From Phytohabitans rumicis (GTDB lineage: Bacteria > Actinomycetota > Actinomycetes > Mycobacteriales > Micromonosporaceae), in NCBI RefSeq assembly GCF_011764445.1, contig NZ_BLPG01000001.1:7581001-7645000 (forward strand): 64,000 nucleotides of DNA. The letters run 5' to 3'. The notes below the pieces were generated by a model. That model ran no database searches, was not told the origin of the DNA, and saw only the letters and a program-made list of their open reading frames with translations. This document shows positions 37,173 to 64,000 of the stretch, piece after piece. Made by a program: the position numbers and the translations under genes. Within the stretch, counting starts at the first letter, position 1, and every line of letters begins with the position of its first letter.

Positions 37173-37251
37173 CTCGGCGAACTTGATCGCGACGAGAATG
37201 TACGCGGCCTATACCCATGTCCGGCCGCGGGTGGTCTGCCACGATCGGGGC

Positions 37252-40200: not shown

Positions 40201-40332
40201 ACGCCTGGCCTGCTCAACGGTTTGGCCGGCATCGGGTACGGGCTGCTCCGCGCCGGTTTTGCGGAGCAGGTGCCGTCCGTGCTCCTTTTCGGGACCGTCC
40301 AGGTAGGAATCGGCAAAAGAAGCAGTCAATGA
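37252..40332 (+). CDS. lanM: Type II lanthipeptide synthetase LanM
   Basis: 1026 residues from GTG 37252, a normal LanM length. The N-terminal two thirds are the dehydratase domain, with kinase-like residues known from CylM: the Lys in VIYKPR, then VDIHRENLV and VVDVETVL. The C-terminal third is a LanC-like cyclase with its zinc ligands: Cys in WCAGQAG (39946) and Cys-His in LCHGELG (40057-40062). By family, it phosphorylates Ser/Thr, eliminates phosphate to Dha/Dhb, and adds Cys thiols to make (methyl)lanthionines. A candidate precursor begins 26 bp downstream. No LanT transporter or protease is seen near it. Confidence 0.93.
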   Translation: MTGSSTTPAATPPAAVEGWWAAALALGERLAAGVPELASADPDVDARIEAWRGTCDGAGAGQFTLRLADAGIDESGLRALLAEPASHLGARASRPSWVRVVEGALGISPLPVVDAEARGSDVFAGVVHPFVEEIRRQLAAEPLSDLVDAATLNDAYAARLGRRLAAVAAPVLVAELHAAKGRGELSGTEGGERFADFVRQLAAPGRLAALLARYPVLGRLLGQHAQQAVDSRRELLARFVADRPVVVDGLLAGRDPGRLVAVHDMGADAHRGGRSVAALVFSDGRRVIYKPRAVAVHVRFAALVAWLNGALAGTALRTPAVIARDGYGWLEFVAGEPVPDLAAADRFYRRQGALLALLHLVGAVDIHRENLVAAGDQPVVVDVETVLHPMTPVPWLTSDPAADRLASSVHRTGVLPMMLVGDHGRADMSALGGDGAAPAGVAFWDEPGTDRMRLGRRSTPLASRGNRVRLDGVERDPVDHEPDLLAGFRAAYNAIMRDRVRVGALLRHFADVETRVVVRPTQLYRTLLDRSNHPAVLRDALDRDRVLDALWAVAATSQPGSTQLFRHELAELWSGDVPLFTTTPAEIGVRTADGTLVDGLFERSGLAGALGQLDAMSDADRRDQEWIISATLATRRPPAGHRGGPGAEGRATAVDPARLLAAARGIADQLVALAARRHGEVNWLGLELVEERQWLALPMGAGLATGYTGVALFLAELWALTGVERYASVARAAVRRVPPLLAALSGSDETVRAVGCGGMTGFGGIAYALARLAGRLDDASLCDGTRSAIGLAERCVVPDAPLGVFTGVAGCLAAMTAVYEELDLPEAAHTARRCATLLAERVDAPSTSTGFAAGDAGIGWALVRHARSGAAVPDAAHLDVLGSRLLRGAATTGDEYGWCAGQAGVHAARHAAGIADDPAVLDGYATRPVLRDLSLCHGELGILEALAVRRESRAAWIIRRRAGQVCDVISRAGAGCGTPGGVPTPGLLNGLAGIGYGLLRAGFAEQVPSVLLFGTVQVGIGKRSSQ

Positions 40333-40618: not shown

Positions 40619-40688
40619 AGCGGCAGCATCGCCGGCGGAACCCCTGCGCGTCTATCCCGAGGTGGGCCGTCTCATTAGGATCCGAAAC

Positions 40689-49600: not shown

Positions 49601-49954
49601 CTTGTGCAGGTCGATGGGGGTCCGCAGGTCGGTGGTGCGGACCTCGTGCAGCTCCCGCTCCCGCTCGGCGGGCGGCAGCGCGGTCAGGTCGACCACGGGG
49701 AGCGGGACCGGCGCGATCGGGTCGACCAGCATGCCGGCGGTGTCGCCGACCGTGTCGTAGCGCGAGCGCAGGATCGAGTGCCGGGCGGCCACCTGGGTCA
49801 GGGCGGCGCCGAGCGCGCCGGCGTCCAGCGGCCCGCGGATCCGCAGCGCGGCGGACAGTAGCTGGTCGACCGCCGCGCCCGGCCGGAGCTGGTCGAGGAA
49901 CCACAGCTGCTCCTGGGCGACCGACAGCGGACGCCATTCACGATCGGTGGTCAC
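43613..49954 (-). CDS. Two-module NRPS, C-A-T-C-A-T
   Basis: 2113 residues from GTG 49954, overlapping the TauD stop. C1 has HHIAFDG. A1 has YTSGSTGRPKG and pocket residues read by eye as D-A-W-Q-C-A-T-I-D (uncertain; partly Gln-like). T1 attachment Ser is residue 987 in GGHSL. C2 has HHVAFDAW, with Ala for the last Gly of the motif. A2 has FDVAMD, with pocket D-V-D-E-M-V-N-V-T; the acidic residues fit an amine side chain such as diaminopropionate. T2 Ser is residue 2046. There is no thioesterase. The acidic tail LSDAELDALLTKTV may dock onto a partner NRPS. It probably acts before the enzyme at 53564. Confidence 0.93.
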   Translation of the reverse strand: MTTDREWRPLSVAQEQLWFLDQLRPGAAVDQLLSAALRIRGPLDAGALGAALTQVAARHSILRSRYDTVGDTAGMLVDPIAPVPLPVVDLTALPPAERERELHEVRTTDLRTPIDLHKQAPWRATLVRLAPDDAVLLVIVHHIAFDGLSWGVLARELEALYAAALGRPAPALAPLLTQYHQVARRERERAGGGSAAAALAYWQERLAGLGPLELPADRLRPAQWVPDGASVPVTVPAELAMRLRDLGRAGRATPFMVHLAVFQLLLSRYSGQTDIGVGVSMNTRTGAETARLIGLFLDTVVIRSTVDETGGFPDLVAEVRQRVLEALRHGAPFSEVMSRLSVTRDATRNPVFQAGFDWNTVRREPFRLAGLEVEVCPPVFAGSSFDLSLHLAEHPDGTVVGQFVYPTSLFTQARVERMAASYLRLLRSIAEAPARPVAELDLVPAADRRCFTRWNSTDVARPRQSLPALFLARAQADPDAVAVRAEEQELTYAELADRVRVLAGHLRRHGVTAETPVGVAMHRGLHLPVAVLAVLAAGGTYVPLPPEYPADRLAYMVADSGAALVLTDSTVDDLLDQPDADPGDLPDIDDRQSAYIVYTSGSTGRPKGVVVTHEGIRNRVLWSVQRYGMTAADRLLHKTTIGFDAAVWELLAPLVSGGSVVMAPPDGHRDPAVMTAAIVRHRVTLLQVVPSVLRLLVNEPGLARCTSLRLLCSAGEALPAALARRLVDLLDIEVVNTYGPTECSIDATAATFQPDEAAESVPIGGPLPNIELYVVDRADQLVPVGVPGELRLGGVGLARGYLGRTDLTAARFTPNPYADRPGQRWYHTGDLVRWREDGELEFLGRVDQQIKVNGVRVEPAEIECVLGEHPEITAAVVIGRHTEAGETHLVAYVVPGVPDDLHDHLADRLPAAMVPAQILPVERLPLTPNGKVDRAALLAIGTSTAEAAAGPAPRTPVERDIATAMAEVLGADEIAVTDNFFARGGHSLAAIRLVMRLRRTFGIEMTVGDLFARPTVQGVAEWIGDQLAPAAAIGVTPVPRDRPLPLSFAQQRMWFLDQLTPGTAEYLIPLAVRVHGALDPDRLRRATAAVVRRHEVLRTRYLDRDGEPVQVVDPPGSLAFEQVDLTGRPDAETAGLELLDRASGRPFDLAAEHPLRVTLVRLGPDHHLLLMALHHVAFDAWSMGIFLADLDAAYVADAAPWAGPALQYADFAAWQREQADHSGQLAYWRDRLAGLAPLELLTDRSRGAQRDPSGALLALDVPESLARSVLSLAGDRAATPFMVLLAAFQVLLARYARRSDVAIGTPVAGRTRPETEDLLGLFTNTLVIQCDLAGDPRFVDLLEQVRAVTLDAFAHQDVPFEHVVDAVQPERDLSRNPLFQVMFDVQHLDRFPATLGGAAIEPIRSGPLVSKFDLTLTVQQRAGGRLRCVFEYATELFDRSTVERLAGQYLRLLDSIVAEPRSRLGELELLAGDERHRLLREWPRSGADVIDRLDPAAEHHLCVPQLFEAQVRRTPEALAAVFGTEQVTYAQLDERVNRFARRLRRLGVAAETTVAVCLERSLDAVVVLLGVLKAGGVYTPVDPTQPAERRDYMIADSGARVVVTTGEFAATFDGPYTVVAVDDEAGAGDEAGVDLPTVTDPRNLAYLIYTSGSTGRPKAVMIEHRSYAHHCRVIADAYRITPRDRVVLLSALTFDVAMDQIAATLLAGATIVVGDPVFWAPADLPARLAEHQVTIMEITPAYYREMLEYDVSGLDRLALMNVGSDVVTASDAQRWAATGLPGRFLCNYGPTEATVTCFLHPVDASSPERSEPATAVLPIGRPVAGTRAYVLDPDLRPVPIGVPGELCLGGVRLARGYHGRPELTARQFVPDPLSEEPGARLYRTGDLVRYRPDGAVEFLGRIDQQVKIRGLRMEIGEIEAALARHPSVQAVAVVAAEVTPGDKGLAAYLVLREGPGPNPVELREHLRGLLPENMIPSWWTFLADLPKTSSQKVDRKALPAPRPGTGRALRAPETAAEEIVADIWREVLGLSEVSVDDDFFAVGGHSLLATRVLARLRRAFAVEFPLRQLFESRTVAQLAEAVTDAVEADVAALSDAELDALLTKTVPDTRNDE

Positions 49955-50931
49955 GGTCGCCTCCCGTCATCGCCACTGTCCACAGTGGCGGGGTCCCATG
50001 CTTCGGCCATCGCGACCGCAATCTTCCGGTGACCGGTGAACGGCTCCCGGCCATGCGCGGCCAGCATGTTGTCGACGACGAGGATGTCCTCGGGCTGCCA
50101 GTCGAACCGGCGCTGGGCGCCACGGTAGGCCGCCCGCAGATGCGCCACGACGTCGTCGGGGATCGGTGCGCCGTCACCGTAGTACGTGTTCGTCGGCAGG
50201 TCCGCCTCGTCGAGCATCTCCCGCAGGCCGGCGCACACGTCCGGGGCGAGCGTCGTGACATGGAAGAACGTCACGTGGTTGAACCACACCGTATCGCCGG
50301 TGACCGGATGCTGGTGCACCGCCCGCCGGCAGGCCCGCGTGCGCAGGTCCCGCGCGCCGACCCACTCGGCCTCCATGCCGTTGCGCGTGCAGTACGCGAC
50401 CACCTCGGACCGGTCGTCCGTGCCGAACACCTGCTGCCACGCCACCCCGTAGCCGCTGCTGAAGTTGCGGACCACCATCCAGCCGCGGACGGCGAACTCC
50501 TCGCGGACGGCCGGGTCGATGGCCCGGTACACCTCCCGGGTGTCCGCCAGCGGCGTCGCGCCCAGCGTGTCCGGCGGGCGCAGACAGTAGAAGAACAGCG
50601 TCAGCGGCCAGCGTGCCTGGTAGGAGTTCTCGTTGTGGAGAAAGATCTCCTCGTTCGGCGGGTAGTCGGTGGAGGTGTAGACGTTGCCCGCGATGGTGCT
50701 GCGCGGCGACGAACGCTCGGTGTAGGGCAGCGGCGAGCCGGCGATCGCCCGTACGGCGCTGTCGAAGCCGTCCACCCCGCCGACGCCGTACCCGCGCAAC
50801 AGCACCGCGCCATGCTCGCGAAGGTGGCGGCGCAGGGACGGCACGTCGAGTGTGGAGCCACTGGAGATCGCCGTCCCGGGGGTATCCGGCGTCATCACGA
50901 CAGGTAAGCCGAGCGTGGCTGGGATCCGCAT
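49951..50931 (-). CDS. TauD/TfdA-family Fe(II)/2-oxoglutarate oxygenase (SyrP-like)
   Basis: 326 residues from ATG 50931; ATG 50895 is an alternative, and neither has a strong ribosome-binding site. The iron ligands HxD/E are in [13 protein letters not shown]. The distal His and the 2-oxoglutarate Arg are in [22 protein letters not shown]. SyrP-like members hydroxylate the beta carbon of an amino acid, often while it is bound to an NRPS carrier. It is translationally coupled to the two-module NRPS by a GTGA overlap, so the substrate is probably a residue loaded there. Confidence 0.88.
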
Positions 50932-51425: not shown

Positions 51426-52412
51426 TCAGGTGAAGTCGTGGATGGCTGTCCCCACACCGAGTGCCACTGCCCGGCGGCGGACCAGCTCGGCTACGGCCAG
51501 GTCGAGGATGCCGAGCCCGAATGGGGAGAACAGGGTCAGGCCGCGCTCGTCCCGGCGGTGCGGCTCGGCGGCGAGCAGCAGACCGCCAAGGGTGGCGGCG
51601 ACGAAGTCGGTGTGTCCCGCCTGCTGCGCGGCCAGGTGCACGGAGGTCGACGCCTGGCACACATGTTCGACGTCGTCGACGACGTTGGTGCTGGACAGCA
51701 CCGTCGTCGCGGCGATGTCCCGCAGGGACACGTGCAGCACCAGGGTGCCGGGCCGAAACTGCTCGCCGTCAAGGTGGGGCGTGGTCGCCGTGGTCGCCAG
51801 CGAGACCAGGCGGTGCGCGCCGAGCGCCGTCCCGATGTCGTCGGCGACATCGAATTTCAGGCCGTCGTAGCGCTGGGTGCAGTCGGCGGCGAACGCCTTG
51901 GCCCGGGTGGGATCGGTGTCGAACAGGGTAACGGTGTCCACAGTGGGTAGTGCGTGGCGGACGAAGCGCAGCACCTCGCCGTTGATGACCCCGCAGCCCA
52001 CGAGGGTGATGCCGGTGTCCGGAGTCGGCGAGCGGATCGTGGCGGCGGCCAGCGCGGCGCTCGCCCCGGTGCGGCGGGCCGAGATCGCGGCCGCGTCCAG
52101 CAGTGTCTCCGGCACGCCGGTGCGCACCGAGTTCAGCACGATCAACCCGCTCGCCCGGGGCTGGCCGGCGGCGATGTTGCCCGGAAACGACGAGATCCAC
52201 TTGACGCCGGCGACGGGGTTGTCGCCACCCAGGTACGCGGGTTTCGCGATGATGCGGTTGCGCAGGTCGGGCGGGAACCGGAGAAAGACGGAGTCGGGGA
52301 GCGCCGTCTGCCCGCGCTCATGCTTGACGTACGCGTCGCGTACCGCCGCCAGCACCTCCTCGTCCGCCCCGGCGAGCAGTTGGCGCACGTGCTCGGCACC
52401 CAGGATCAGCAT
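51426..52412 (-). CDS. sbnB: SbnB-like N-(amino-carboxyethyl)-glutamate dehydrogenase
   Basis: 328 residues from ATG 52412, which lies inside the 3' end of the sbnA-like gene (7-bp overlap). It belongs to the ornithine cyclodeaminase/mu-crystallin family: MLILGAEHVRQLLAG, KPAYLGGDNPVAGVKWISSF, a Rossmann motif TGITLVGCGVINGEVLRFV, and LHVSLRDIA. SbnB oxidatively cleaves N-(1-amino-1-carboxy-2-ethyl)-glutamate with NAD to give L-2,3-diaminopropionate and 2-oxoglutarate. Its coupling to an SbnA-like synthase makes this reaction likely rather than ornithine cyclisation. Confidence 0.88.
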   Translation of the reverse strand: MLILGAEHVRQLLAGADEEVLAAVRDAYVKHERGQTALPDSVFLRFPPDLRNRIIAKPAYLGGDNPVAGVKWISSFPGNIAAGQPRASGLIVLNSVRTGVPETLLDAAAISARRTGASAALAAATIRSPTPDTGITLVGCGVINGEVLRFVRHALPTVDTVTLFDTDPTRAKAFAADCTQRYDGLKFDVADDIGTALGAHRLVSLATTATTPHLDGEQFRPGTLVLHVSLRDIAATTVLSSTNVVDDVEHVCQASTSVHLAAQQAGHTDFVAATLGGLLLAAEPHRRDERGLTLFSPFGLGILDLAVAELVRRRAVALGVGTAIHDFT

Positions 52413-53430
52413 GATGCAACCTCCACGTCGGCTTGTTTCCACAGGTGCGAGATGTCACCGAAGTGCGCGTTGACCCAGGCATCGCTGTAGATCGTGTCCA
52501 GGTAGCGCTCGCCCCGGTCGGGCAGGATGAGTACGCAGGTGGCGCCCGGCGGGATCCGATCACGCAACTGGTCCAGGGCGGCGACCACCGCGCCGGACGA
52601 ACCGCCGGCCAGGATCGCCTCCCGCCGGGCGAGCTGGCGGCAGCCCACGACGCACTCGGTGTCGTCGACGTGCACCACCTCGTCGGCCAGGTCGTCGCGG
52701 TAGAGCTTCGGGCGCAGGGCGGCGCCGTGGCCGGGGATGAGTCGGGGCCCGGCCGGCTGGCCGAAGATGACGCTGCCCACCGCGTCCACCGCGACGATCC
52801 GGGTGGGCAGGTCGTGGGCGCGAATGTAATCGGCGCACCCGCGCAGCGTGCCGCAGGAGCTGGCGGCGCAGAACAGGAGATCGACCGGCCCGGGGCGGCC
52901 TCCGCGATCTCCCGCATGGTGGTGTGGTGCGCGCGGGCGTTGAGCGGGTTCGAGTACTGGTCGGTCCAGAACCCGTTCGGGATCGTCGCGGCCAGCTCCC
53001 GCACGCGGGCGATGCGCGCCGGCAGGTACTCGCCGGTGGCCGGATCGGTCTGGGTCACCACCTCGACCTCGGCACCGAGCGCGCGCATGATGGCGATGTT
53101 CTGGGCGTTGCTGCGCGGGTCGACCACGCAGATGAACTTGATGCCGTAGTACGCGCACATGTGTGCCAGCCCGATGCCCAAGTTGCCCGAACTTGACTCG
53201 ATCAGCACCGAGCGCCCCGGCACGATGCGTCCACTGCGGATCCCGTCGCGGACCATCTGCAGGGCCACCCGGTCTTTGATGCTGCCGCCGGGGTTGTCCC
53301 CCTCCAGCTTGGCGAACGTCCGAAATGGACTTTCCGCGCTGATGCGGGTCAGCTCAATGAGCGGCGTACCGCCGATAGCACCGGTGAGTCCTGTGACGAA
53401 TGTCTGTCCGGAGTCGGCCACTGGCGTCAT
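52406..53430 (-). pseudogene. sbnA: SbnA-like PLP-dependent ACEGA synthase (one frameshift as sequenced)
   Basis: The start is ATG 53430 (MTPVADSGQTFVTGLTGAIG). Fold-type II PLP enzyme of the cysteine synthase family: GGTPLIELTRI, the PLP lysine in NPGGSIKDRVALQ, the loop ESSSGNLGIGLA, and the C-terminal phosphate-binding GGSSGAVVAAL. The frame breaks at the plus-strand GGGG run 52892-52895 and continues in another frame to 52406. One added base gives EIAEAAPGPVDLLFC and a 341-residue protein. SbnA condenses O-phosphoserine with glutamate. With SbnB it makes 2,3-diaminopropionate, probably for the NRPS. It is divergent from the large NRPS at 53564. Confidence 0.85.
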
Positions 53431-53462
53431 GGACCGAGTGTTGGCGTCCGCCACGCGGTGCC

Positions 53463-53516
53463 GCAGAGAAGAAAACGCAGACACACCGGCATCGGGACCG
53501 AGCGAGTTGTTCTCTC
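53463..53516. promoter_or_regulatory. Shared motif in the sbnA/NRPS divergent promoter
   Basis: GCAGAGAA (53463-53470) and TTCTCTC (53510-53516) repeat the half-sites seen at 50965-50996, but 39 bp apart. They lie in the 133-bp gap that must promote both sbnAB and the NRPS2-mhp operon. Confidence 0.45.
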
Positions 53517-53563
53517 TTCGACGGGCCGGCGGATGGTGAGGCTGGCACCGAGGAGGTTGAGCT

Positions 53564-56500
53564 ATGACCGAGACCCTAGACCGGGTGGCACTTCGGGCCG
53601 AGCTGGTGCGCCGCCGGCTGCGGGGCGAGGCCACGCCGGCGCCCGACGACGGGATCGCGCCCACCGTCCGGCCCGACACCGTCCCGCTTTCCTACGCCCA
53701 GCACCGGCTCTGGCTGCTCGACCAGATGCGACCGGGTGGCACGGAATACCTGATGACGACGGCGCTGCGGCTGCGCGGCAGCTTGGACACGGCCGCGTTG
53801 ACGACCGCGATCGAAGGGATCGTCGCCCGCCACGAGGTGCTGCGCACCCGCTACGAGCTGGTGGCCGGCGAGCCGGTGCAGGTTGTCGACGAGCCGGGGC
53901 CGGTGCCCGTCGCCGTCGTCGACCTGCGCGATCTGACCCCGCCGGAGCGCGAGCGGCGCATCGCCGCCCTCGCCACGTCCGAGCGGAGCCCGGTGGACCT
54001 GGCGACCGGCCCCGTCCTGCGGGCCACCCTGGTCCGGCTGACCGGTGAGGAGCACGCGTTGCTGCTGACCGTGCACCACGTCGCCACCGACGGCTGGTCG
54101 GAGGGCGTCATCATCGCCGAGCTGGCCAGCCGGTACCGCGCCGCGGTCACCGGCCGGCCGGCGCAGGAGCCTCCGTTGCCGATCCAGTACGCCGACCTGG
54201 CGGTGTGGCAGCGGTCGGCGCGGTCCCGGGCCGGGCTGGAGCGCCAGCTTGCCTACTGGCGCGAGCGGCTGGCCGGGCTGAGCCCGCTGGAGCTGCCGAC
54301 CGACCACCCCCGGCCACCGGTACGCGACTCCGCCGGTGCGCTGCACTCCTTCGAGCTCGCCACGCCGACCGCCGAAGCGCTGCGCCGGCTCACCTTGTCG
54401 CGCGGCGTGACGCCGTATCAGGCGCTGCTGGCCGGCTTCGTGGTCCTGCTGTACCGCTACACCGGTCAGACCGACGTCGCGGTCGGCACCCCGATCGCCG
54501 GCCGCGACCGGCCCGAGGTGCAGGACATGGTGGGCCTGCTGCTCAACACCGTGGTGCTGCGCACCGACGTGTCCGGCAGTCCATCCTTTGTGGACCTTCT
54601 GGACCGGGTCCGGAACACCACGCTGGACGCGCACGACCACCGCGAGCTGCCCTTCGAGTGGCTGGTCGAAAAACTTGTCCCGGGGCGGGACCCGTCCCGC
54701 AATCCGCTGTTCTCCACGATGTTCGTGTGGGACGACGCGGTGACGACCACCACCGAGACCGCCGGACTGCACATCGAGCGCATACCGGTCGGCGAGAGCA
54801 GCGCCAAGTTCGACCTGACCGTGGCCGTGGCCGAGCGCCCCGATGGGTCGGTGCGGGTCGGCTTCAACTACGCGACCTCGCTGTTCGACCAGGAAACCAT
54901 CGAGCGCATGGCACTGCACTACGGCCAGCTGCTGGCCGAGGCGGCCGCCGCGCCGCACGCACCCGTCGATCGGCTGGCGCTGCTCGGCCCGGCCGAGCGG
55001 CGCCAGCTGACGGTCGACTGGAACGACACCGAGACGAGCTATCCGGCCGCGACCCTGACCGAACTGCTGGACGCGCAGGCGACCCGCACGCCGGACGCGG
55101 TCGCCCTGCGCTTCGGCGCCGAGGAGCTGTCGTACCGCCGGTTGCACTCCGAGGCCGACGTGCTCGCGCGGCGCCTGCGCCAGGCCGGAGTGGGGCCGGA
55201 GTCCATCGTGGCGGTCTGCCTGCCGCGCGGTCTCGACCTGATGCGGGCCCTGGTGGCGATCCTGAAGGCCGGCGCCGCCTACCTGCCGCTGGAGCCGGAC
55301 CTGCCGGCGCAGCGCCGCGCCTTCATGGTGCGCGACTCCGGCGCCCACCTGGTGATCACCGAAGACTTCATGTCCACCGTGGACTATGCGTCTGGCGGCG
55401 GCGATCCGGTACCGTCCGGCGGGATCACGCCCGAGCACGCCGCCTACCTCATCTACACGTCCGGGTCGACCGGCCAGCCCAAGGGCGCCCTGATCGAGCA
55501 CGCCGCGATCGTCAACCGCCTGCTGTGGATGCAGGACGCCTACCGGCTCGACGCCTCGGACCGCGTGCTGCAGAAGACACCGATCGGGTTCGACGTGTCG
55601 GTGTGGGAGCTGTTCTGGCCGCTGGTCACCGGCGCGACGCTGGTCCTGGCCCGACCAGGTGGACACCGCGACCCGGCCTACCTGGCCGGCGTGATCCGGA
55701 ACGAGAGGATCACCACCGTCCACTTCGTACCCTCGATGCTGCGCGCCTTCCTGGCCGAGCCCGTCGGGCCGCTGCCGTCCCTGCGGCGGATGATCTGTAG
55801 CGGCGAGGCGCTGCCGGCCGAGCTGGCGGACCGGGCGCACGAGCAGGTCGGATGCGAGCTGCACAACCTGTACGGTCCGACCGAGACCGCCGTCGACGTC
55901 ACCGCGGTGCGGTGCGAGCCCGGCGAGCCGGTCACCATCGGCCGTCCGATCGCCAACACCACCGCCTACATCGTCGACCCCAGCCTGGAGCCCACGCCGC
56001 TCGGTGTGCCCGGCGAACTGCTGATCGGTGGCGTGCAACTCGCCCGGGGCTACCTCGGCCGGGCCGCGCTGACCGCCGAACGGTTCGTCCCCGACCCGTT
56101 CGCCACCGCCCCGGGCCGGCGCCTCTACCGCACCGGTGACCTGGCGCGCTACCGCCCCGACGGCGGCATCGAGTACCTCGGCCGGATCGACCACCAGGTG
56201 AAGATCCGTGGTCAGCGCATCGAGTTCGGCGAGGTCGAGGCCGTGCTGCACGAGGCGCCCGGCGTCACCGCGGCGGCGGTTGCCGTCCACGACGAGCAGC
56301 TGGTCGGCTACCTGGTCGGCCCGGACACCGTCGACCTCGTACGCGCGTACCTGCTGGAGCGCCTGCCGGACGCGATGGTCCCGGCGCGCTGGACGATCCT
56401 GCCCACCCTGCCGCTGACCGCCAGCGGCAAGGTGGACCGCCGGGCCCTGCCGGCACCCGACCGGGTACGCGACGGAGCCGATGACAGCTACGTCGCCCCG

Positions 56501-59500
56501 CGCGACGAGATCGAGAAGCGGATCGCCGACGCGTTCGGCGTGGCGCTCGGCATCGACACCGTCGGCGTCACGGACAGCTTCTTCCTGCTCGGCGGCGACT
56601 CGATGCGGGCGATCCGCATGGTGGGGCTGCTGCGCGCGGCCGGCCTCGGCGTGTCGGTCCAGGACCTCTTCACCCACCAGAGCGTGGCCGACCTCAAGGG
56701 CGTCGTCGTCCCGGCCGAGCCGGCCGAGGAAGCGGAGGCGACCGTCGACCGGTTCGCGCTGGTCAGCGAGGCGGACCGGCGCCTCCTGCCGGACGGGCTC
56801 GCCGACGCCTATCCGATCAGCCAGAACCAGGCGGGCATGCTCTTCGAGATGCTGTCCGGCGGCGACCGGCCGGTCTACCGCAACGTGTCGTGCTACCGGA
56901 TCAGCGACCCGCTGCCCTTCTCGCTGGACACGCTGCGCGAAGCCGGCCGGCTGCTCACCGACCGGCACGAGATCCTGCGCACGTCGTTCGACCTGTCCAG
57001 CTACTCCGAGCTGATGCAACTGGTCCACGCGTCGGTCGACCTGCCGATCGGCTACGACGACCTGCGCGGGCTGCCGGCCGACGAGCAGGAGGAGACGGTC
57101 CGCGCGTACCTGCGGGCCGAGCGCACCAAGCCCTTCGACATCACCACCGCCCCGCTGCTGCGCTATCACGTACACCAGCTCAGCGACTCCGACTGGCGAC
57201 TGACCCACTCGGAGAGCCACGCGATCCTCGACGGCTGGAGCCACACCTCCACGCTGGCCATGTTCGTGTCGCTGTACCGGACGCTGCGCCGGGGCGAGCG
57301 GCCGGCGCTGCCACCACCGCCGACGGTACGGTTCGCCGACTTCATCGCCCGCGAACGCGAGTCCCTCGCCTCGGCCGCGGACCGCGCCTTCTGGGCGGAA
57401 ACCGTCACCGGGTCGGACCGGATCGAGCTCCCACCGGAGTGGGGCACCGAGTCGGACGCCCCGGCGAACATCGTCGAAGTGCCGTGGACCGACCTGCGCC
57501 CCGGACTGCGCCGGCTCTCCGCCGCCGCCGGCACCTCACTGAAGAGCGTGCTGCACGCCGCGCACCTGAAGGTGCTGAGCATCGTCACCGGCCGGCAGGC
57601 GTTCCACAGCGGCCTGCTGTGCAACGGCCGGCCCGAGCGGCTGCGCGGCGACGAGGTGTTCGGCATGTTCCTCAACACCGTGCCGTTCGCCGCCGACACC
57701 TCCCCGCGTACGTGGCGCGCCCTTGTCGAGGCCGTCTTCGCCGGCGAGGCCCGCCTCTGGCCGCACCGCCGCTACCCGCTGCCGTCCATGCAACGGGAGT
57801 GGGGCAACGGCACGCCGCTGCTGCGGGTGGGCTTCTCGTACCTGGACTTCCACGTCCTCGACGGCCGCGCCGAGTCGGTCGAGATGATCGACGACTTCAG
57901 CCCCGGCAGCATCGGGCTCGACGTGTGGACGTTCCCCGGGATCCTGCGGCTGGGTGCCCGGCCCGCGCAGATCGACCGGCCGTACCTCGAACTGCTGGCC
58001 CGCACCTACCGGCACGTGCTGGAGGCGATGGCCGCCGACCCGGACGGCGACACGGACATCGGCCTGAGCGAGGCCGACCGGGCCTGGGCGGTCGAGGCAC
58101 ACCAGCCGGTCGAGCGGTTCGCGGCGGCGCCGTTCATCCACGAGCTCGTCGCCCGGCGCGCGACCGCCGCACCCACCGCCGTGGCGGTGCGGCACGGCGA
58201 CGCCACGCTCACCTACGCGGAGCTGGACAACCGGTCCGACCGCCTCGCCGCGCGCCTGGGCGAGCTCGGCGTCCGCCCGGACACGGTCGTCGGCATCCAC
58301 CTGCACCGCGGGATCGACATCATCGTCGCGATGCAGGCCATCCTCAAGGCCGGCGGGGCGTACCTGCCCCTCGATCCCGCGTACCCCGCCGAGCGGATCG
58401 GCGACATGATCCGCGACGCGGCGCCCGTGGTCGTGCTGACCGACGCCGAACTGGCCCCGAGACTGCCGTGCACGACCGCGACGGTGCTGGTCGCCGACCT
58501 CGCGAACGCGCGGCCCCGGGTGGCGTACCCGCCGGCGGTGCCGCTCACCGGGGACAACCTCGCCTACGTCATCTACACGTCCGGCTCCACCGGGCGGCCC
58601 AAGGGCGTCGCGGTCACCCACCGCAGCGTGCTCAACTTCTGCCACGCCCAGCGGCGGGTCCTGGACACGCGGGCCGGGGACCAGGTGCTCCAGTTCGCCT
58701 CGCCCAGCTTCGACGCCTCCGTCTGGGAGATCCTCCTGGCCCTCGCCAGCGGCGCCACGCTGGTGCTGCCGCCGCCGGACACCGACCCCGGCGACCTGCG
58801 CCGCCACGCGGCCGAGCTGACCCACATGACCCTGCCACCGCCGCTGCTGGACCGCCTCGACCCGGCCGACTTCCCGCGCCTGAAGGTGCTGACCACCGGA
58901 GGCGAGGCGTGCACGGCCGACCAGGCGGCGCGGTGGGCCGGCCACGTGCGCGTCCTGCACGGCTACGGACCCACGGAGACCACCGTGATCGCCACCATCG
59001 CCGACCTGCGGGCCACGGACACGGCACCGCCGCCGATCGGGCTCCCGCTGCACAACGTGCGCCCCTACGTCGTCGACGACGAGCTGCGCCTGCTGCCCGC
59101 CGGCGTACGCGGGGAACTCGTGATCGGCGGCGCGGGCGTGGTGCGCGGATACCTGAACCGGCCGGAGCTCACCGCCGAGCGGTTCGTGCCGGACCCGTAC
59201 GCGTCCCGGCCGGGCCAGCGCATGTACCGCACCGGCGACGTGGTCTCCCGGGACCCCGACGGCACCCTGCACTTCCACGGTCGCCGCGACCACCAGGTCA
59301 AGGTCCGCGGATTCCGCATCGAGCTCGGCGAGATCGAGCACGCGCTCGCCGCCCACCCGGCCGTGGCCGCCGCGGTGGTCGCCGTGCACCGGGCCGGCAC
59401 GCCGGACGCCGCGCTCGTCGCCTACACCCGCCCCGCGAACGGGACCGCGGTGTCCGCGGCCGCATTGCGCGACTACGTGCGTGAGCGGTTGCCGCAGCAC

Positions 59501-60706
59501 CTCGTCCCGCACCACTACCTGTCCGTGGACGACTTCCAGTACACGCGCAACGGCAAGGTCGACCGGGCCGCCCTTCCGGCGCCGGACGGCTCGCGGCCGG
59601 TGACCGACGTCGAGTACGTCGCGCCGCGCTCGGACATCGAACGGCACATCGCCACCGCCTGGAGCGAGGCGCTGGGCATCGAGCGGATCGGGGTGCACGA
59701 CGACTTCTTCGAGCTCGGCGGCTACTCGCTGGCGATGATGCGGCTGACCGCGACGCTGCGCAGCCGGCACGGCTACGAGCTGACGTTCGGCTCGTTCGTC
59801 GAACACCGCACCGTCGCCGGGCTGGCCGCGACACTCCAGGACCCGGCGGCGGCGAACCGCGCGATGATGTGGCTGCGGAGCGAGGGTGACGGCCGGCCTC
59901 CGCTGTTCTGTGTGCACCCCGGTGGCGGCAGCGCGCACTGGTACCTGCGCCTGGCTCCGCACCTGCACCCGGACCAGCCGGTGGCGGCGTTCGAGTGGCC
60001 GGGCCCGCATCCAAACGGGACCCCGACCACGGCCGAGATGGCCGAGCGGTACGACAACGAACTGCGCCAGGCCCAGCCGCACGGACCGTACCGGCTGTTC
60101 AGCTGGTGCGGCGGCAGCGGCATCGCCAGCGAGATCGCCCACCGGCTGGTCGCGGACGGGCACGACGTCACGCTGATCCTGCTCGACCCGGGCCTGGACA
60201 TCCACAGCCGCACCGACGCCTGGCGCGAGCTGGGCCTGATCCGCCGCCTCGAGTACCTGCTCGAAGAGGTGAGCGCCGGCGGCGACGAGGCGGACACGCC
60301 GGAACGCCGCCGCGAGATCCTCGACCTGCTCGAGCACATCGTCGACGACGTCAACGAGGAGACCGGCATCACGCTGCCCGAGCGCGGCGTCGGGGACTCG
60401 TGGCCACGGGCGGTCCGGATCTGGCGCGAGGTCATGGAGGTGGACGTCGAGTACCGGCACCGTCCCTGGCCGGGGCGGCTGGAGCTCATCGTGAGCGACG
60501 AGCTCGCCAGCGGCCAGCACGAGGTGACGTCCGGCCAGAGCTACCCGGACTACCTGGCCCGCTGGAACGAGCTCTGCACCGGTGGGGTGCGGGTGCACCG
60601 CGTACCGGGCGACCACTTCAGCGTCATCAAGCCGCCGCTGGTCGGCGAGCTTGCCCGCGTCATCACCGACGTACTAGACGCCGCGCCCGCCGGGCCCGGC
60701 CAGTGA
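53564..60706 (+). CDS. Two-module NRPS with terminal Cys-thioesterase, C-A(Ser)-T-C-A-T-TE
   Basis: 2380 residues from ATG 53564, with AGGAGG upstream. The basic N-terminal helix (RVALRAELVRRRL) may dock to the other NRPS. C1 has HHVATDG. A1 pocket reads D-V-W-H-I-S-L-V-D, the serine code. T1 Ser is residue 1013. C2 is atypical, beginning YPISQNQAGMLFEML, with SHAILDGWS (first His of HHxxxDG is Ser; catalytic His 1219 kept). A2 pocket reads D-A-W-T-T-G-G-V-I, a hydrophobic type with no clear match. T2 Ser is residue 2055. The TE has FSWCGGSG, placing Cys 2182 where Ser is normal. It should add the last two residues and release, perhaps cyclise, the product. Confidence 0.93.
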   Translation: MTETLDRVALRAELVRRRLRGEATPAPDDGIAPTVRPDTVPLSYAQHRLWLLDQMRPGGTEYLMTTALRLRGSLDTAALTTAIEGIVARHEVLRTRYELVAGEPVQVVDEPGPVPVAVVDLRDLTPPERERRIAALATSERSPVDLATGPVLRATLVRLTGEEHALLLTVHHVATDGWSEGVIIAELASRYRAAVTGRPAQEPPLPIQYADLAVWQRSARSRAGLERQLAYWRERLAGLSPLELPTDHPRPPVRDSAGALHSFELATPTAEALRRLTLSRGVTPYQALLAGFVVLLYRYTGQTDVAVGTPIAGRDRPEVQDMVGLLLNTVVLRTDVSGSPSFVDLLDRVRNTTLDAHDHRELPFEWLVEKLVPGRDPSRNPLFSTMFVWDDAVTTTTETAGLHIERIPVGESSAKFDLTVAVAERPDGSVRVGFNYATSLFDQETIERMALHYGQLLAEAAAAPHAPVDRLALLGPAERRQLTVDWNDTETSYPAATLTELLDAQATRTPDAVALRFGAEELSYRRLHSEADVLARRLRQAGVGPESIVAVCLPRGLDLMRALVAILKAGAAYLPLEPDLPAQRRAFMVRDSGAHLVITEDFMSTVDYASGGGDPVPSGGITPEHAAYLIYTSGSTGQPKGALIEHAAIVNRLLWMQDAYRLDASDRVLQKTPIGFDVSVWELFWPLVTGATLVLARPGGHRDPAYLAGVIRNERITTVHFVPSMLRAFLAEPVGPLPSLRRMICSGEALPAELADRAHEQVGCELHNLYGPTETAVDVTAVRCEPGEPVTIGRPIANTTAYIVDPSLEPTPLGVPGELLIGGVQLARGYLGRAALTAERFVPDPFATAPGRRLYRTGDLARYRPDGGIEYLGRIDHQVKIRGQRIEFGEVEAVLHEAPGVTAAAVAVHDEQLVGYLVGPDTVDLVRAYLLERLPDAMVPARWTILPTLPLTASGKVDRRALPAPDRVRDGADDSYVAPRDEIEKRIADAFGVALGIDTVGVTDSFFLLGGDSMRAIRMVGLLRAAGLGVSVQDLFTHQSVADLKGVVVPAEPAEEAEATVDRFALVSEADRRLLPDGLADAYPISQNQAGMLFEMLSGGDRPVYRNVSCYRISDPLPFSLDTLREAGRLLTDRHEILRTSFDLSSYSELMQLVHASVDLPIGYDDLRGLPADEQEETVRAYLRAERTKPFDITTAPLLRYHVHQLSDSDWRLTHSESHAILDGWSHTSTLAMFVSLYRTLRRGERPALPPPPTVRFADFIARERESLASAADRAFWAETVTGSDRIELPPEWGTESDAPANIVEVPWTDLRPGLRRLSAAAGTSLKSVLHAAHLKVLSIVTGRQAFHSGLLCNGRPERLRGDEVFGMFLNTVPFAADTSPRTWRALVEAVFAGEARLWPHRRYPLPSMQREWGNGTPLLRVGFSYLDFHVLDGRAESVEMIDDFSPGSIGLDVWTFPGILRLGARPAQIDRPYLELLARTYRHVLEAMAADPDGDTDIGLSEADRAWAVEAHQPVERFAAAPFIHELVARRATAAPTAVAVRHGDATLTYAELDNRSDRLAARLGELGVRPDTVVGIHLHRGIDIIVAMQAILKAGGAYLPLDPAYPAERIGDMIRDAAPVVVLTDAELAPRLPCTTATVLVADLANARPRVAYPPAVPLTGDNLAYVIYTSGSTGRPKGVAVTHRSVLNFCHAQRRVLDTRAGDQVLQFASPSFDASVWEILLALASGATLVLPPPDTDPGDLRRHAAELTHMTLPPPLLDRLDPADFPRLKVLTTGGEACTADQAARWAGHVRVLHGYGPTETTVIATIADLRATDTAPPPIGLPLHNVRPYVVDDELRLLPAGVRGELVIGGAGVVRGYLNRPELTAERFVPDPYASRPGQRMYRTGDVVSRDPDGTLHFHGRRDHQVKVRGFRIELGEIEHALAAHPAVAAAVVAVHRAGTPDAALVAYTRPANGTAVSAAALRDYVRERLPQHLVPHHYLSVDDFQYTRNGKVDRAALPAPDGSRPVTDVEYVAPRSDIERHIATAWSEALGIERIGVHDDFFELGGYSLAMMRLTATLRSRHGYELTFGSFVEHRTVAGLAATLQDPAAANRAMMWLRSEGDGRPPLFCVHPGGGSAHWYLRLAPHLHPDQPVAAFEWPGPHPNGTPTTAEMAERYDNELRQAQPHGPYRLFSWCGGSGIASEIAHRLVADGHDVTLILLDPGLDIHSRTDAWRELGLIRRLEYLLEEVSAGGDEADTPERRREILDLLEHIVDDVNEETGITLPERGVGDSWPRAVRIWREVMEVDVEYRHRPWPGRLELIVSDELASGQHEVTSGQSYPDYLARWNELCTGGVRVHRVPGDHFSVIKPPLVGELARVITDVLDAAPAGPGQ

Positions 60707-60719
60707 GAGGAAGGACTGG

Positions 60720-61609
60720 ATGAGTACACACGCGAGCCCGACCCCGCTCCAGGTAGCGATCGTGGGCACGGGCAACATCGGAACCGACCTGCTGTTGAAG
60801 GTCGAGGCGTCCCCCTGCTGGAGTGCGTCCTGTTCGCCGGACGCCGCGCCGGATCACCCGGGATCGAGCTGGCCGACAGGCACGGTGTGCCCACGAGCGT
60901 GGACGGCATCGACGCGGTCCTCGCCCGCGCGGAACACATCGACCTGGTCTTCGACGCGACCTCGGCGGAGGACGCCACCCGCCACTGGTCGATCGTCGAA
61001 CCCACCGGGCTGCCGTTCGTCGACCTCACGCCGGCGCACCTCGGCAAGTTCTGCGTGCCGGCCATCAACCTGGACAGCTGCCTCGACGAGCAGTACCTCA
61101 GCATGGTCACCTGCGCGGGACAGGCGGCCGTGCCGATGGCCTACTGCATGGCGGAGGCCGCCGAGGGGATCGACTACCTGGAGCTCGCCACGGCCACCGC
61201 CTCGGCCACCGTCGGCCCCGGGACGCGGGCCAACCTCGACGAGTTCGTGCACACCACCGAGCAGGCGATCCTCGAGTTCTCCGGGGTACGCCGCGCCAAG
61301 ACCGTGGTGATCATCAATCCCGCTGATCCCGGCATCGTCATGCGCAACACCATCGCGGTGCCGCCCACCGAACGCATCGACCTGGACGTCCTGCGCGCGT
61401 CCGTCGACACGATGGAGAAGCTGATCAAGTCGTACGTCCCCGGCTATCGCGTCGCCGTCCCGCCGGTGGCCACCGGCGACCGCATCATGCTCATGGCCGA
61501 GGTCGAGGGCCGCGGAGACTGGTTCCCGCGCTACGCCGGGAACCTCGACATCATCACGTGCGCCGCCATCGCGGTTGCTGAGGCGCGTGCGGAACGGAGG
61601 CGGTCATGA
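60720..61609 (+). pseudogene. mhpF: Acylating acetaldehyde dehydrogenase, MhpF/DmpF-like (one frameshift as sequenced)
   Basis: The start is ATG 60720, with AGGAAGGA upstream and 13 bp after the NRPS stop. The NAD-binding motif is VAIVGTGNIGTDLLLKV. The frame breaks at the CCCCC run 60811-60815; one added C gives ASPLLECVLFAGRRAGSPG and a ~296-residue protein. The catalytic Cys is in MVTCAGQAAVPMAY. DmpF-family enzymes interconvert acetyl-CoA and acetaldehyde and channel the aldehyde to the partner aldolase. Here it probably runs in the reducing direction, like SanN of the nikkomycin pathway. It overlaps the aldolase gene by 4 bp. Confidence 0.87.
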
Positions 61610-62643
61610 ACGGCGCAACCCGACGCGGACTGAGCATCTGCGACACGACCCTGCGCGACGGCAACCACGCCGTCGCCCACCAACTCGGCCGCGCGGACAT
61701 CAGCGCCTACGCCCGGGCGGCCGAGGCCGCCGGCGTGGACGTCGTCGAGGTCGGCCACGGCAACGGACTCGGCGCCTCGTCCATCCAGGTCGGCATGGCC
61801 GCGCTCAGCGACGCCGACATGCTGCGGACGGCCAAGGCCGAGCTGCGTACGGCCCGGCTCGGCGTGCTGTCCATCCCCGGGTTCGCCAGCGTCGAGCGCG
61901 ACCTCAAGCCCGCATTGGACTACGGCGTGGACGAGGTGCGGGTCGGCGCGCACTGCACCGAGGCGGACGTCACCCGGCAGCAGGTCACGATGCTGCGGGC
62001 CATGGGCGTCACCGTCAAGGGCATGCTGTTGATGAGCCACATGGTCTCCGCGGCAAAACTTGTGGAACAGGCACGGATCATGCAGAGCTACGGCGCCGAG
62101 GCGGTCGTGCTGATGGACTCCGCCGGCGCGTACACGCCGGAGAAGGTCCGCGAAAAGGTCGGCGAACTCGTCGAGAAACTCGACATCGAGGTCGGTTTCC
62201 ACGCGCACAACAACCTTGGCATGTCGGTCGTCAACAGCATGGCGGCGGTCCAGGCCGGAGCCACCATTGTGGACGTCACCGCGCGCGGCTTCGGCGCCGG
62301 CGCGGGCAACGCGCCGATCGAGCTCGTCGCGGCGAACCTGCACGTGGAGCAGATCGAGACCCGCATCCAGCTCTTCGGGGCGCTCGACGCGGCCGACGTG
62401 GCACAGGAGCACTTCGTCAAACACGTACCCACCAACGACAGCGTCACCATCGCCAGCGGGATCGCCGGCGTGTTCTCCGGTTTCGCCGCGCCGGTGCGGC
62501 GGGCGAGCGCCCGCTTCGGCGTCGACCCCCGCAAGATCCTGCTGGAGCTCGGCAACCGCCGGGTGGTGGCGGGTCAGGAAGACACCATCATCGAGGTCGC
62601 CATGTCGCTCGCCGCCGAGCAGGAGGCGTTGAGCCTCGTCTGA
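61606..62643 (+). CDS. mhpE: 4-hydroxy-2-oxovalerate aldolase, MhpE/DmpG-like
   Basis: 345 residues from ATG 61606, coupled to the dehydrogenase. The HMGL-like barrel opens ICDTTLRDGNHAVAHQ (catalytic Arg, metal-binding Asp). The metal-binding HxH is in EVGFHAHNNLGMSVVNSMAA. A C-terminal DmpG communication domain follows. It catalyses the reversible aldol reaction of pyruvate (or another 2-oxo acid) with an aldehyde. In a biosynthetic operon the condensation direction is likely, giving a 4-hydroxy-2-oxo acid, as SanM does in nikkomycin biosynthesis. Confidence 0.92.
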   Translation: MNGATRRGLSICDTTLRDGNHAVAHQLGRADISAYARAAEAAGVDVVEVGHGNGLGASSIQVGMAALSDADMLRTAKAELRTARLGVLSIPGFASVERDLKPALDYGVDEVRVGAHCTEADVTRQQVTMLRAMGVTVKGMLLMSHMVSAAKLVEQARIMQSYGAEAVVLMDSAGAYTPEKVREKVGELVEKLDIEVGFHAHNNLGMSVVNSMAAVQAGATIVDVTARGFGAGAGNAPIELVAANLHVEQIETRIQLFGALDAADVAQEHFVKHVPTNDSVTIASGIAGVFSGFAAPVRRASARFGVDPRKILLELGNRRVVAGQEDTIIEVAMSLAAEQEALSLV

Positions 62644-62694
62644 GCAGCCGTCAGTTTCGCATCAAGTCGTGCTTCAAGTCGTGTAGGAGGAGCA

Positions 62695-63681
62695 ATGCAA
62701 CGCCATTCCTCGCTCGAGAACGCGGCCGACCTGGCCGCGGTCGCCGCGCTGCTGCAGATCGGCGCGGAGATCGGAGTCGACCAACTGCTGGACTCGGGCG
62801 GCACGTTCAGCGCCGCGGATCTGGCCAAGGTGGCCGACCTCCCGCAGGCCGGCACCGACGACTACCTGGCCGCGCTGGTCGCCGCGGGACTCGTCGTGGA
62901 CACGGAGATCCCGAACAGGTTCCAGGTGGCCGAGGACTACCCGGACTGGCGGTACGCGTCCGGATACGTGTCCTGGAGCCTGAGCGCGAACGGCCCGTTC
63001 CTCGACCACGCGCGGGAGTTCCTGGTCGACCGCGACGCGGCCGCCCGGGCCCATCAGCGGAACGGACGCCGGGTGGCGGTCAGCTCACGGTGGATCGGCG
63101 CGCGGGCGTTCTATCCACCGATCGTCGACCGGGTCGCCGCGGCCGGTGCCCGCCACGTGGCAGACCTCGGCGCCGGCGCCGGCGGGTTGCTCATCAAGCT
63201 CCTGGGGCAGGACCCGGCGCGTACCGGCGTGGCGCTCGACTGCAGCGGCGCCGCGTGTGCCGCGGCGCGGGAGGCCGCCGTCGCCGCGGGCGTGGACGGC
63301 CGGCTCCAGGTCGTCGAGCGCACGGTCGAGTCCCTTGTGGACGATCAGGGACCGGTCGAGGGCGCGAACGTCGTGCTCGCGTGCTTCGTCATGCACGACA
63401 TCGTGGCGGACGCCGCGGTGGCCAAGGGCGTCCTGGGCGCCTGCCGCGACGCGCTCGCGCCCGGCGGGTTCATGGCGGTCGCGGACGCGGTCTCGTACGC
63501 GTCCCAGCCCGCCGAGCGGAAGTTCAGCGCGCTGTTCACCTACCTGCACGCCAGCTTCATGAGCGTGACCCTCCCGACCGAGGGACAGTGGCTGGACACG
63601 TTCCAGGCCGCGGGCTTCTCGAAGACCGAGTACGTGCCGCTCGGCACCCCCGGCGCCCGGCTCTTCGTGGCGGTCAAATAA
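62695..63681 (+). CDS. SAM-dependent methyltransferase (O-/C-methyltransferase fold)
   Basis: 328 residues from ATG 62695, with AGGAGGAG upstream. An N-terminal helical dimerisation/winged-helix part (ENAADLAAVAALLQIGAEIG, FSAADLAKVADL) precedes a Rossmann domain with motif I VADLGAGAGGLLIKLL. FVMHDIVADAAVAKGVLG and LAPGGFMAVADAV follow. The architecture resembles small-molecule methyltransferases, including the 2-oxo acid C-methyltransferases such as MppJ and SgvM. Its place between an aldolase and a hydratase that handle 2-oxo acids makes 2-oxo acid C3-methylation plausible. O-methylation cannot be excluded. Confidence 0.87.
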   Translation: MQRHSSLENAADLAAVAALLQIGAEIGVDQLLDSGGTFSAADLAKVADLPQAGTDDYLAALVAAGLVVDTEIPNRFQVAEDYPDWRYASGYVSWSLSANGPFLDHAREFLVDRDAAARAHQRNGRRVAVSSRWIGARAFYPPIVDRVAAAGARHVADLGAGAGGLLIKLLGQDPARTGVALDCSGAACAAAREAAVAAGVDGRLQVVERTVESLVDDQGPVEGANVVLACFVMHDIVADAAVAKGVLGACRDALAPGGFMAVADAVSYASQPAERKFSALFTYLHASFMSVTLPTEGQWLDTFQAAGFSKTEYVPLGTPGARLFVAVK

Positions 63682-64000
63682 TGACCACCGCGCTGTCCCT
63701 GCACCGCGAGCTCGCGTGGGAACTCTGGACGGCGGCACGGACACTTCAGGCCGTGCCGCCGGTCTCTACCCGGCATCCGGACCTCGACCTGGCCGACGCG
63801 TACGCCATCCAGAGCGAGGTCCGCGAGATGGACCTGGCGTCCGGTGCGGTCCTGGCCGGACTCAAGATCGGGGCGACGAGCGAGGCGATCCAGTCGATGT
63901 TCGGCATCGACCATCCCGACTTCGGCTACCTGACCGACAGAATGGTGCTCGCCGACGGTGCGGACCTCGACCTGAGCCGGTTCATCGCGCCGAAGGTCGA
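63681..64000 (+). CDS. mhpD: 2-keto-4-pentenoate hydratase, MhpD-like (3' end outside window)
   Basis: ATG 63681 overlaps the methyltransferase stop by one base (TAATG), and the frame is open to the window end (106 residues visible). It begins MTTALSLHRELAWELWTAAR, followed by LADAYAIQSEVREMDLASGA, LAGLKIGATSEAIQSMFGID, and a FIAPKVE stretch that approaches the metal-binding glutamates of the FAH/MhpD family. The enzyme interconverts 2-hydroxypenta-2,4-dienoate and 4-hydroxy-2-oxovalerate. With the aldolase and dehydrogenase it completes the MhpDEF trio, here probably run in the synthetic direction. Confidence 0.85.
   Translation, partial: MTTALSLHRELAWELWTAARTLQAVPPVSTRHPDLDLADAYAIQSEVREMDLASGAVLAGLKIGATSEAIQSMFGIDHPDFGYLTDRMVLADGADLDLSRFIAPKV

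Follow-up and report, generated by a model that had tools for sequence, protein, structure and literature searches.

Organization of the operon

The window analyzed here is a 64,000-nucleotide (nt) stretch of Phytohabitans rumicis DNA (G000:C1:7581001-7645000, within a 10.7-Mb genome) that ends in an operon in which a nonribosomal peptide synthetase (NRPS) gene is followed by a cassette of four genes: homologs of MhpF, MhpE and MhpD, and a methyltransferase (MT). The NRPS (53564..60706, + strand, as are all genes of the operon) matches two condensation (C), two AMP-binding or adenylation (A), two carrier (T) and one thioesterase (TE) domains, and motifs together with match positions give the order C-A-T-C-A-T-TE. 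The MhpF-like acylating aldehyde dehydrogenase (60720..61609) starts after a 13-nt gap and overlaps by 4 nt an MhpE/DmpG-like pyruvate aldolase with a DmpG_comm domain (61606..62643), which is assigned by family models. The SgvM-family C3-methyltransferase (62695..63681), assigned by homology, follows after 51 nt and overlaps by 1 nt a member of the MhpD-like 2-oxopent-4-enoate hydratase family (63681..64000 in the window). The stretch beyond the window end (L005) extends the MhpD homolog to 64460 and completes it at 259 amino acids (aa). A 24-of-26-bp inverted repeat is located at 64478-64553, 3' of mhpD, and beyond it a convergent gene ends at 64724; thus, the operon is considered to end with mhpD. 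A simple scan found no T-tailed terminator after mhpD. The tight gaps and the TE-ended NRPS confirm the first-pass annotation, which had placed MhpF, MhpE, MT and MhpD behind an NRPS in one operon, with the provision that the frame of MhpF needs correcting.

The mhpF gene is not one open frame in the assembly: the reading frame changes between the start (60720, with a GTGNIG motif) and the remainder (60887-61609). The spacing of the two pieces is 75 nt in the window and 76 nt, which preserves the frame, in all 13 relative loci (12 distinct) for which the ends of both pieces were matched; more remote loci, in which the cassette order is MT-MhpD-MhpF-MhpE (MT-D-F-E), gave no match to the short first piece and are left out of this count. 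An SbnA-like gene of the same cluster is also split over two frames (52318-53679), and so the frame split of mhpF is likely an assembly indel. Further downstream (79317-88258), an NRPS is called as overlapping frames, which likewise suggests indels of the assembly. The two frames of mhpF could alternatively signify that in this strain the cassette has decayed and no longer functions. This alternative is improbable, as the split SbnA-like gene and the overlapping NRPS frames beyond 79 kb are what assembly indels would give, while the MhpE, MT and NRPS genes are open with normal codon-position GC and mhpD is open.

Enzyme families of the cassette

The C-terminal piece of MhpF matches AcetDehyd-dimer (E 2.1e-42), and the enzyme scores above the cut-off for PRK08300 (283 vs 166 bits) and just below that for TIGR03215 (276 vs 282 bits). 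MhpF carries a TCAGQA motif, which we take to surround the catalytic Cys. When window-type and cyclomarin-type copies of MhpF were compared by eye, no residue difference telling of aldehyde size was noted. MhpE exceeds the cut-offs of PRK08195 (404 vs 229 bits) and TIGR03217 (351 vs 286 bits). The best match of MhpD is TIGR03220, the 2-oxopent-4-enoate hydratase model (E 2.6e-69, 233.5 bits).

The methyltransferase (METHYLTRANSFERASE) has no NCBIfam match above a cut-off but matches SgvM (8ftr and 8ftv, E 9.3e-81 and 2.7e-81). According to the available part of PMC10502145, SgvM methylates C3 of alpha-ketoleucine and holds zinc by H244 and H296. Both histidines are present in the window enzyme as H234 and H285, and all 56 aligned sequences and all 28 rows set beside SgvM keep them. 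Thus, C3 methylation of a 2-oxo acid, the reaction first suggested for this enzyme, is likely on the basis of its membership in the SgvM family.

Distribution of the cassette and kinship with cyclomarin-type clusters

Loci were collected from one scan of genome contigs (at least 14 loci) and one family search, which at E<=1e-60 gave 17 loci in 16 of 354 genomes, the window included. Thirty stretches were read, of which 28 are distinct (L021=L041 and L015=L048 are each counted once, and the window is not counted). All four genes are present in 25 of the 30 stretches, or 23 of 28 distinct MT loci, among the loci listed. The distinct loci are ordered as MhpF-MhpE-MT-MhpD (F-E-MT-D; 13 loci), MT-D-F-E (nine loci: L009, L015/L048, L016, L018, L047 and L049-L052) or split (one locus, L010). 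MT is alone in five stretches (L017, L019, L020, L053 and L054). In L049, a small carrier-protein-like frame is located between the MT-D-F-E cassette and an aminotransferase. The F-E-MT-D cassettes of L011-L014 are near an HPPD-family gene and, in several cases, FMN 2-hydroxy-acid oxidase-like and prephenate-dehydrogenase-like genes (by eye, with family models run on L013), a neighborhood that looks like hydroxyphenylglycine-type supply.

The cassette also resides in clusters of the cyclomarin type. In genome G309 (L058, L045 and L059), an NRPS of 7792 aa has seven modules with the A domain codes DVWTHGGVA, DALHSGAVA, DVFFVGLVA, DAWTVAAVC, DALFVGLVA, DALLIGAVV and DAMVLGVIA. The A-to-A spacings are 1016-1052 aa, except for 1422 aa after module 2 and 1404 aa after module 6, where N-methyltransferase domains are expected; a motif pattern found only one such domain. 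Genes for a P450, a PhyH oxygenase, a NUDIX protein and a Trp_DMAT prenyltransferase neighbor this NRPS and are followed by F-E-MT-D. Genome G027 (L044 and L057) has homologous genes of like size (NUDIX and Trp_DMAT) with the cassette, and the start of the contig truncates its NRPS.

Common descent of the window cassette with those of cyclomarin-type clusters is indicated by MT identities and an aldolase tree. The window MT is 69% identical to P0018, a protein of Salinispora arenicola CNS-205; the identity to P0018 is 92% for the MT of L045 and 95% for that of L044. A tree built from 39 aldolases unites the window with five relatives and L044/L045 (support 100/97), and within this group the window joins the five relatives (L021, L039, L040, L042 and L043) at 97/81. 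A long branch separates four catabolic enzymes from the others (100/100); long branches drew a warning from the program. As in the cyclomarin-type clusters, F, E, MT and D are side by side in an NRPS cluster, albeit with MhpF broken here.

In the available part of PMC8068612, the ADH residue of cyclomarin (written there as 3-amino-3,5-dimethyl-4-hexenoic acid) is derived from valine-derived isobutyraldehyde and pyruvate via a four-gene cassette, citing Schultz 2008; the available part of PMC13192320 names 2-amino-3,5-dimethylhex-4-enoic acid. The four genes are not named in that part of PMC8068612 (neither CymE-H nor an aldolase), and from homology and position we infer that its cassette is the one described here.

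Residues of the aldolase and methyltransferase

Aldolase residues are given in BphI numbering, taken as DmpG minus one (DmpG Tyr291 = BphI Tyr290). The residues at 87/89/290 are Leu/Ile/Phe in the window, identical to L044/L045, and Leu/Leu/Tyr in DmpG. Phe is found at 290 in all 26 cassette aldolases, the window included (24 distinct), and at 87 in the MT-D-F-E aldolases and L010. By contrast, position 290 is Tyr in DmpG, the catabolic copy of the same genome and three further solved catabolic chains; thus, the window aldolase lacks the Tyr290 of the catabolic BphI/DmpG-type enzymes. The available part of PMC3962088 ties Tyr290 to strict 4S stereocontrol: BphI loses C4 stereocontrol when modified to Y290F/S, the control is inverted by L87N or L87W with Y290F, and L89A favors longer aldehydes. 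As MhpD would remove the C4 hydroxyl, C4 stereocontrol may be dispensable in the cassette aldolases.

SgvM was widened by engineering with the F329V/T331A/M144V substitutions (PMC10502145, in the part available). Positions 144/329/331, which are Met/Phe/Thr in SgvM, are Ile/Thr/Gly in the window and Ile/Val/Gly in the five relatives. At 329, cassette MTs carry Thr, Val, Leu or Met (L010 has Phe), while 331 is Gly and 144 is either Ile or Val, in a survey that leaves out L021, L048, L051 and L052. Of the MTs without a cassette, three (L019, L053 and L054) keep Phe/Thr/Met (329/331/144), while L017 (Phe, Ala and Ile) and L020 (Ser, Thr and Gln) match neither pattern. The cassette MTs thus carry less bulky residues at the positions used to widen SgvM, which suggests a substrate exceeding alpha-ketoleucine in size and weighs against a C5 acid formed from acetaldehyde.

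Biosynthetic versus catabolic function

The enzyme families of the cassette are as in catabolism, and the set might be a lower meta-cleavage pathway that resides beside the NRPS by chance. This possibility is exceedingly slight. The methyltransferase is conserved within the set, the operon with the NRPS is tight, and NRPS neighbors are also found in relatives. No ring-cleavage (extradiol) dioxygenase was found near the operon, in a scan against Pfam that did not include every neighboring gene. Over the whole genome, glyoxalase-fold proteins gave 57 matches, the nearest ~51 kb upstream (a 145-aa frame) and >160 kb downstream, and LigB gave three matches, all elsewhere. The genome also has a separate MhpD-MhpF-MhpE (D-F-E) set on contig C2 (L002 and L060), the aldolase of which is 39% identical to that of the window. 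The neighbors of the C2 set (by eye) are an alpha/beta-hydrolase, an acyl-CoA-dehydrogenase-like protein and a Rieske oxygenase, families that presumably represent steroid-type catabolism, and a glyoxalase-fold match (C2:814317) is ~5 kb from the C2 aldolase. With no ring-cleavage dioxygenase near and a separate catabolic set elsewhere, a ring-degradation operon is rejected and the cassette is, in all likelihood, biosynthetic. The first-pass annotation had similarly noted no ring-cleavage genes in view and assigned a biosynthetic role with the NRPS; both points hold, and the whole-genome searches placed no glyoxalase-fold or LigB match within 160 kb downstream that would speak against them.

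Adenylation codes of the neighboring NRPS

The A domain codes cover nine of the ten code positions and were taken from MAFFT columns located by the GrsA positions. The first A domain of the operon NRPS has the code DVWHISLVD, which we take to be Ser-like, and the last has DAWTTGGVI, taken to be hydrophobic and Phe-like. The last code is DAWTTGAVV or DAWTVGAVV in the five relatives and resembles DAWTVAAVC of module 4 (the Phe position) of the cyclomarin-type NRPS. The last A domain, thus, likely takes a bulky hydrophobic residue. The hydrophobic character assigned to this domain at first stands, but the Phe-like code weighs against 4,5-dehydroisoleucine, the residue with which it had been matched.

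The cassette might instead feed a module other than the last one, as two of the codes in the wider cluster, DAWQCATID and DASFLGLVA (second NRPS, ~86.5 kb), could not be interpreted. In three relatives (G220, G247 and G227), however, the module adjoining the cassette reads as the most clearly hydrophobic among the eight A domains found, and supply of another module is considered unlikely.

Proposed route and its product

The four genes probably represent an amino-acid cassette of the cyclomarin type, the product of which is destined for the last module of the neighboring NRPS. Gene order, enzyme families, conserved motifs and kinship place them with the cyclomarin-type cassettes, and the direction and order of the reactions, as well as use of the product by the A domain, are proposed as follows. 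MhpF would convert an acyl-CoA to an aldehyde that is handed to MhpE, and MhpE would join the aldehyde to pyruvate to form a 4-hydroxy-2-oxo acid. MhpD, operating in reverse, would remove water to generate a 2-oxo-4-enoate (as the dienol), and the SgvM-type MT would methylate C3 by way of an enolate bound to zinc. The L-amino acid to be loaded by the last A domain would then be formed by a transaminase, probably one of the housekeeping enzymes of class IV or the PRK03321 type.

Several observations weigh against this assignment. The score of MhpD is well below the equivalog cut-off of its best model (408.8 bits), and MhpF reads broken in this assembly. Phe290 is found in 120 of 120 database matches listed (the protein of the window included), among them 37 of 37 more remote aldolases (P0204-P0240, 55-60% identity), which weakens Phe290 as a signature of the cassette. 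The cyclomarin-type NRPS has DAMVLGVIA in its last module, a code unlike that of the last A domain here. The aminotransferase of the cluster is of the EctB type, and no class IV or PRK03321-type aminotransferase is in the cluster, other classes not being searched by models of their own. As a separate observation, the P0204-P0240 aldolases have His at BphI position 87.

The acceptor aldehyde would set the side chain. Isobutyraldehyde, with ADH as the product, is tentatively proposed at somewhat below even chances. Because the last A code is not the one found in the final module of the cyclomarin-type NRPS, the product may differ from ADH; an acyl group that is larger than acetyl and other than isobutyryl is possible, though rather unlikely, and the product may be a third residue that is neither ADH nor 4,5-dehydroisoleucine. 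Acetaldehyde, formed from acetyl-CoA, was the acceptor of the first-pass annotation, with 2-amino-3-methylpent-4-enoate (4,5-dehydroisoleucine) as the product. The families are named for acetaldehyde and 4-hydroxy-2-oxopentanoate, and the departure of the last A code from the cyclomarin type is compatible with this form. Against it, the aldolase groups with the cyclomarin-type cassette and shares its Leu, Ile and Phe; the MT residues equivalent to M144, F329 and T331 are smaller here, though a C5 2-oxo acid is smaller than the substrate of SgvM itself; and the last A code is Phe-like. Thus, acetaldehyde and 4,5-dehydroisoleucine are not favored and are regarded as unlikely. Any other acceptor is highly unlikely. 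The reverse meta-cleavage chemistry that was put forward with acetaldehyde is sound in logic but is not new, as it is proposed for the ADH of cyclomarin (PMC8068612, in the part available), and the aldehyde chosen is probably wrong.

Transamination

An aminotransferase had been predicted to lie outside the window, and one is indeed located ~7.5 kb downstream (71927-73471, - strand). This enzyme passes the EctB diaminobutyrate transaminase model (TIGR02407, 559.9 vs 552.2 bits) and is probably not the one predicted; a likelier type is present in related MT-D-F-E cassettes. A homolog of the EctB type is directly after mhpD in four distinct Micromonospora-type loci (L021/L041, L039, L040 and L042), with that of L021 just below the cut-off (546.2 bits), and was not found by search in L043, L044 or L045. 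An OTC-family gene adjoins the EctB-type gene of the window genome. The EctB-type enzyme, thus, more likely serves diaminobutyrate supply; as it passes the diaminobutyrate model and no homolog was found in the cyclomarin-type L044/L045, it is not preferred as the missing transaminase. Elsewhere in the genome, two class IV aminotransferases and one of the PRK03321 type are over the cut-off, all outside the cluster. In eight of the nine distinct MT-D-F-E loci, a PRK03321-like aminotransferase gene starts within 450 nt after mhpE (one a partial match), whereas none was found within this distance in L016; the PRK03321 model is over the cut-off in the three loci tested (L009, L018 and L049). The PRK03321-like genes behind MT-D-F-E cassettes support the conversion of the 2-oxo acid to an amino acid.

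The wider gene cluster

Upstream of the operon NRPS, on the - strand, are genes for SbnB (TIGR03944, 386 vs 327 bits) and the frame-split SbnA-like PALP protein (51426..53679), which probably provide 2,3-diaminopropionate, a TauD-family dioxygenase (49951..50931) and a two-module NRPS (43613..49954) with the A codes DAWQCATID and DVDENGNVT. An AAA/LuxR regulator (40662-43604) and a LanM-type lanthipeptide synthetase (37183-40332; TIGR03897, 617 bits vs cut-off 304) are on the + strand, and in three relatives both have homologs next to the counterparts of these NRPS genes. The relatives G220, G247 and G227 keep the SbnA/SbnB-like genes, TauD, the two-module NRPS, a Ser-X-TE NRPS, the cassette, EctB, LanM and the large regulator; OTC is among the genes called in G220 and G227 and was found by search in G247. 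Their LanM homologs are 44-45% identical to that of the window, a LanM homolog is present at four distinct loci in all, and the retention of LanM with an NRPS having Ser-like modules would be unusual. The window genome has the same cluster genes in a rearranged order, from ~37 to 73 kb. An nSTAND1 NTPase with WD40 repeats (32922-36155, - strand) adjoins the cluster. The region L005:4724-11153 (64724-71153 in window numbering, - strand) encodes two Lant_dehydr_N proteins, between which are a free-standing A domain and a carrier protein; this region was not the best match of any gene called in G220, G247 or G227. By A codes, at least four and probably five further Micromonosporaceae genomes have this peptide cluster in common with the window genome.

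Comparison with known systems

The occurrence of the four-gene set at 23 of the 28 distinct MT loci, its two main gene orders and the Phe in place of BphI Tyr290 are, within the literature searched, new here, and indicate that the ADH cassette of cyclomarin is a recurrent module and not a one-off. Aldolase positions 87/89/290 and methyltransferase positions 144/329/331 provide residue handles for side-chain prediction. With some reservation, the cassette may be viewed as a portable, widely spread module that converts acyl-CoA, pyruvate and S-adenosylmethionine to beta-methyl, gamma,delta-unsaturated amino acids, with the side chain set by the acyl-CoA, the residue of this Micromonosporaceae cluster family being other than ADH, and the loss of Tyr290 reflecting a C4 stereochemistry made irrelevant by removal of the hydroxyl.

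The dehydrogenase-aldolase pair and the DmpG_comm domain are common to the window, DmpF-DmpG, BphJ-BphI and the D-F-E set of contig C2. The window aldolase keeps R17, D18, H21, H200 and H202 of DmpG, to which we ascribe catalytic and metal roles, while Tyr62, Tyr287 and Tyr291 of DmpG are replaced by Val, Ile and Phe. Compared with DmpF-DmpG and BphJ-BphI, the window set adds a methyltransferase and is predicted to function in the synthetic direction. The SanN/SanM enzymes of nikkomycin, which the first-pass annotation cited as precedent, are a dehydrogenase-aldolase pair in biosynthesis that uses an aromatic aldehyde and is not known to have methyltransferase-hydratase partners. SgvM, the 2-oxo-acid C3-methyltransferase of viridogrisein (PDB 8ftr), is homologous to the window MT over 317 residues, with its S141 as well as the zinc-ligand histidines kept; the pathway of SgvM itself is not known to have an aldolase cassette. 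The ADH cassette of cyclomarin A (Salinispora arenicola CNS-205) presumably has all four gene families in common with the window, where F-E-MT-D is behind the NRPS as in the cyclomarin-type clusters described here. Unlike cyclomarin, the window cluster includes SbnA/SbnB, a Ser-type module, EctB and LanM, and has another A code in its last module.

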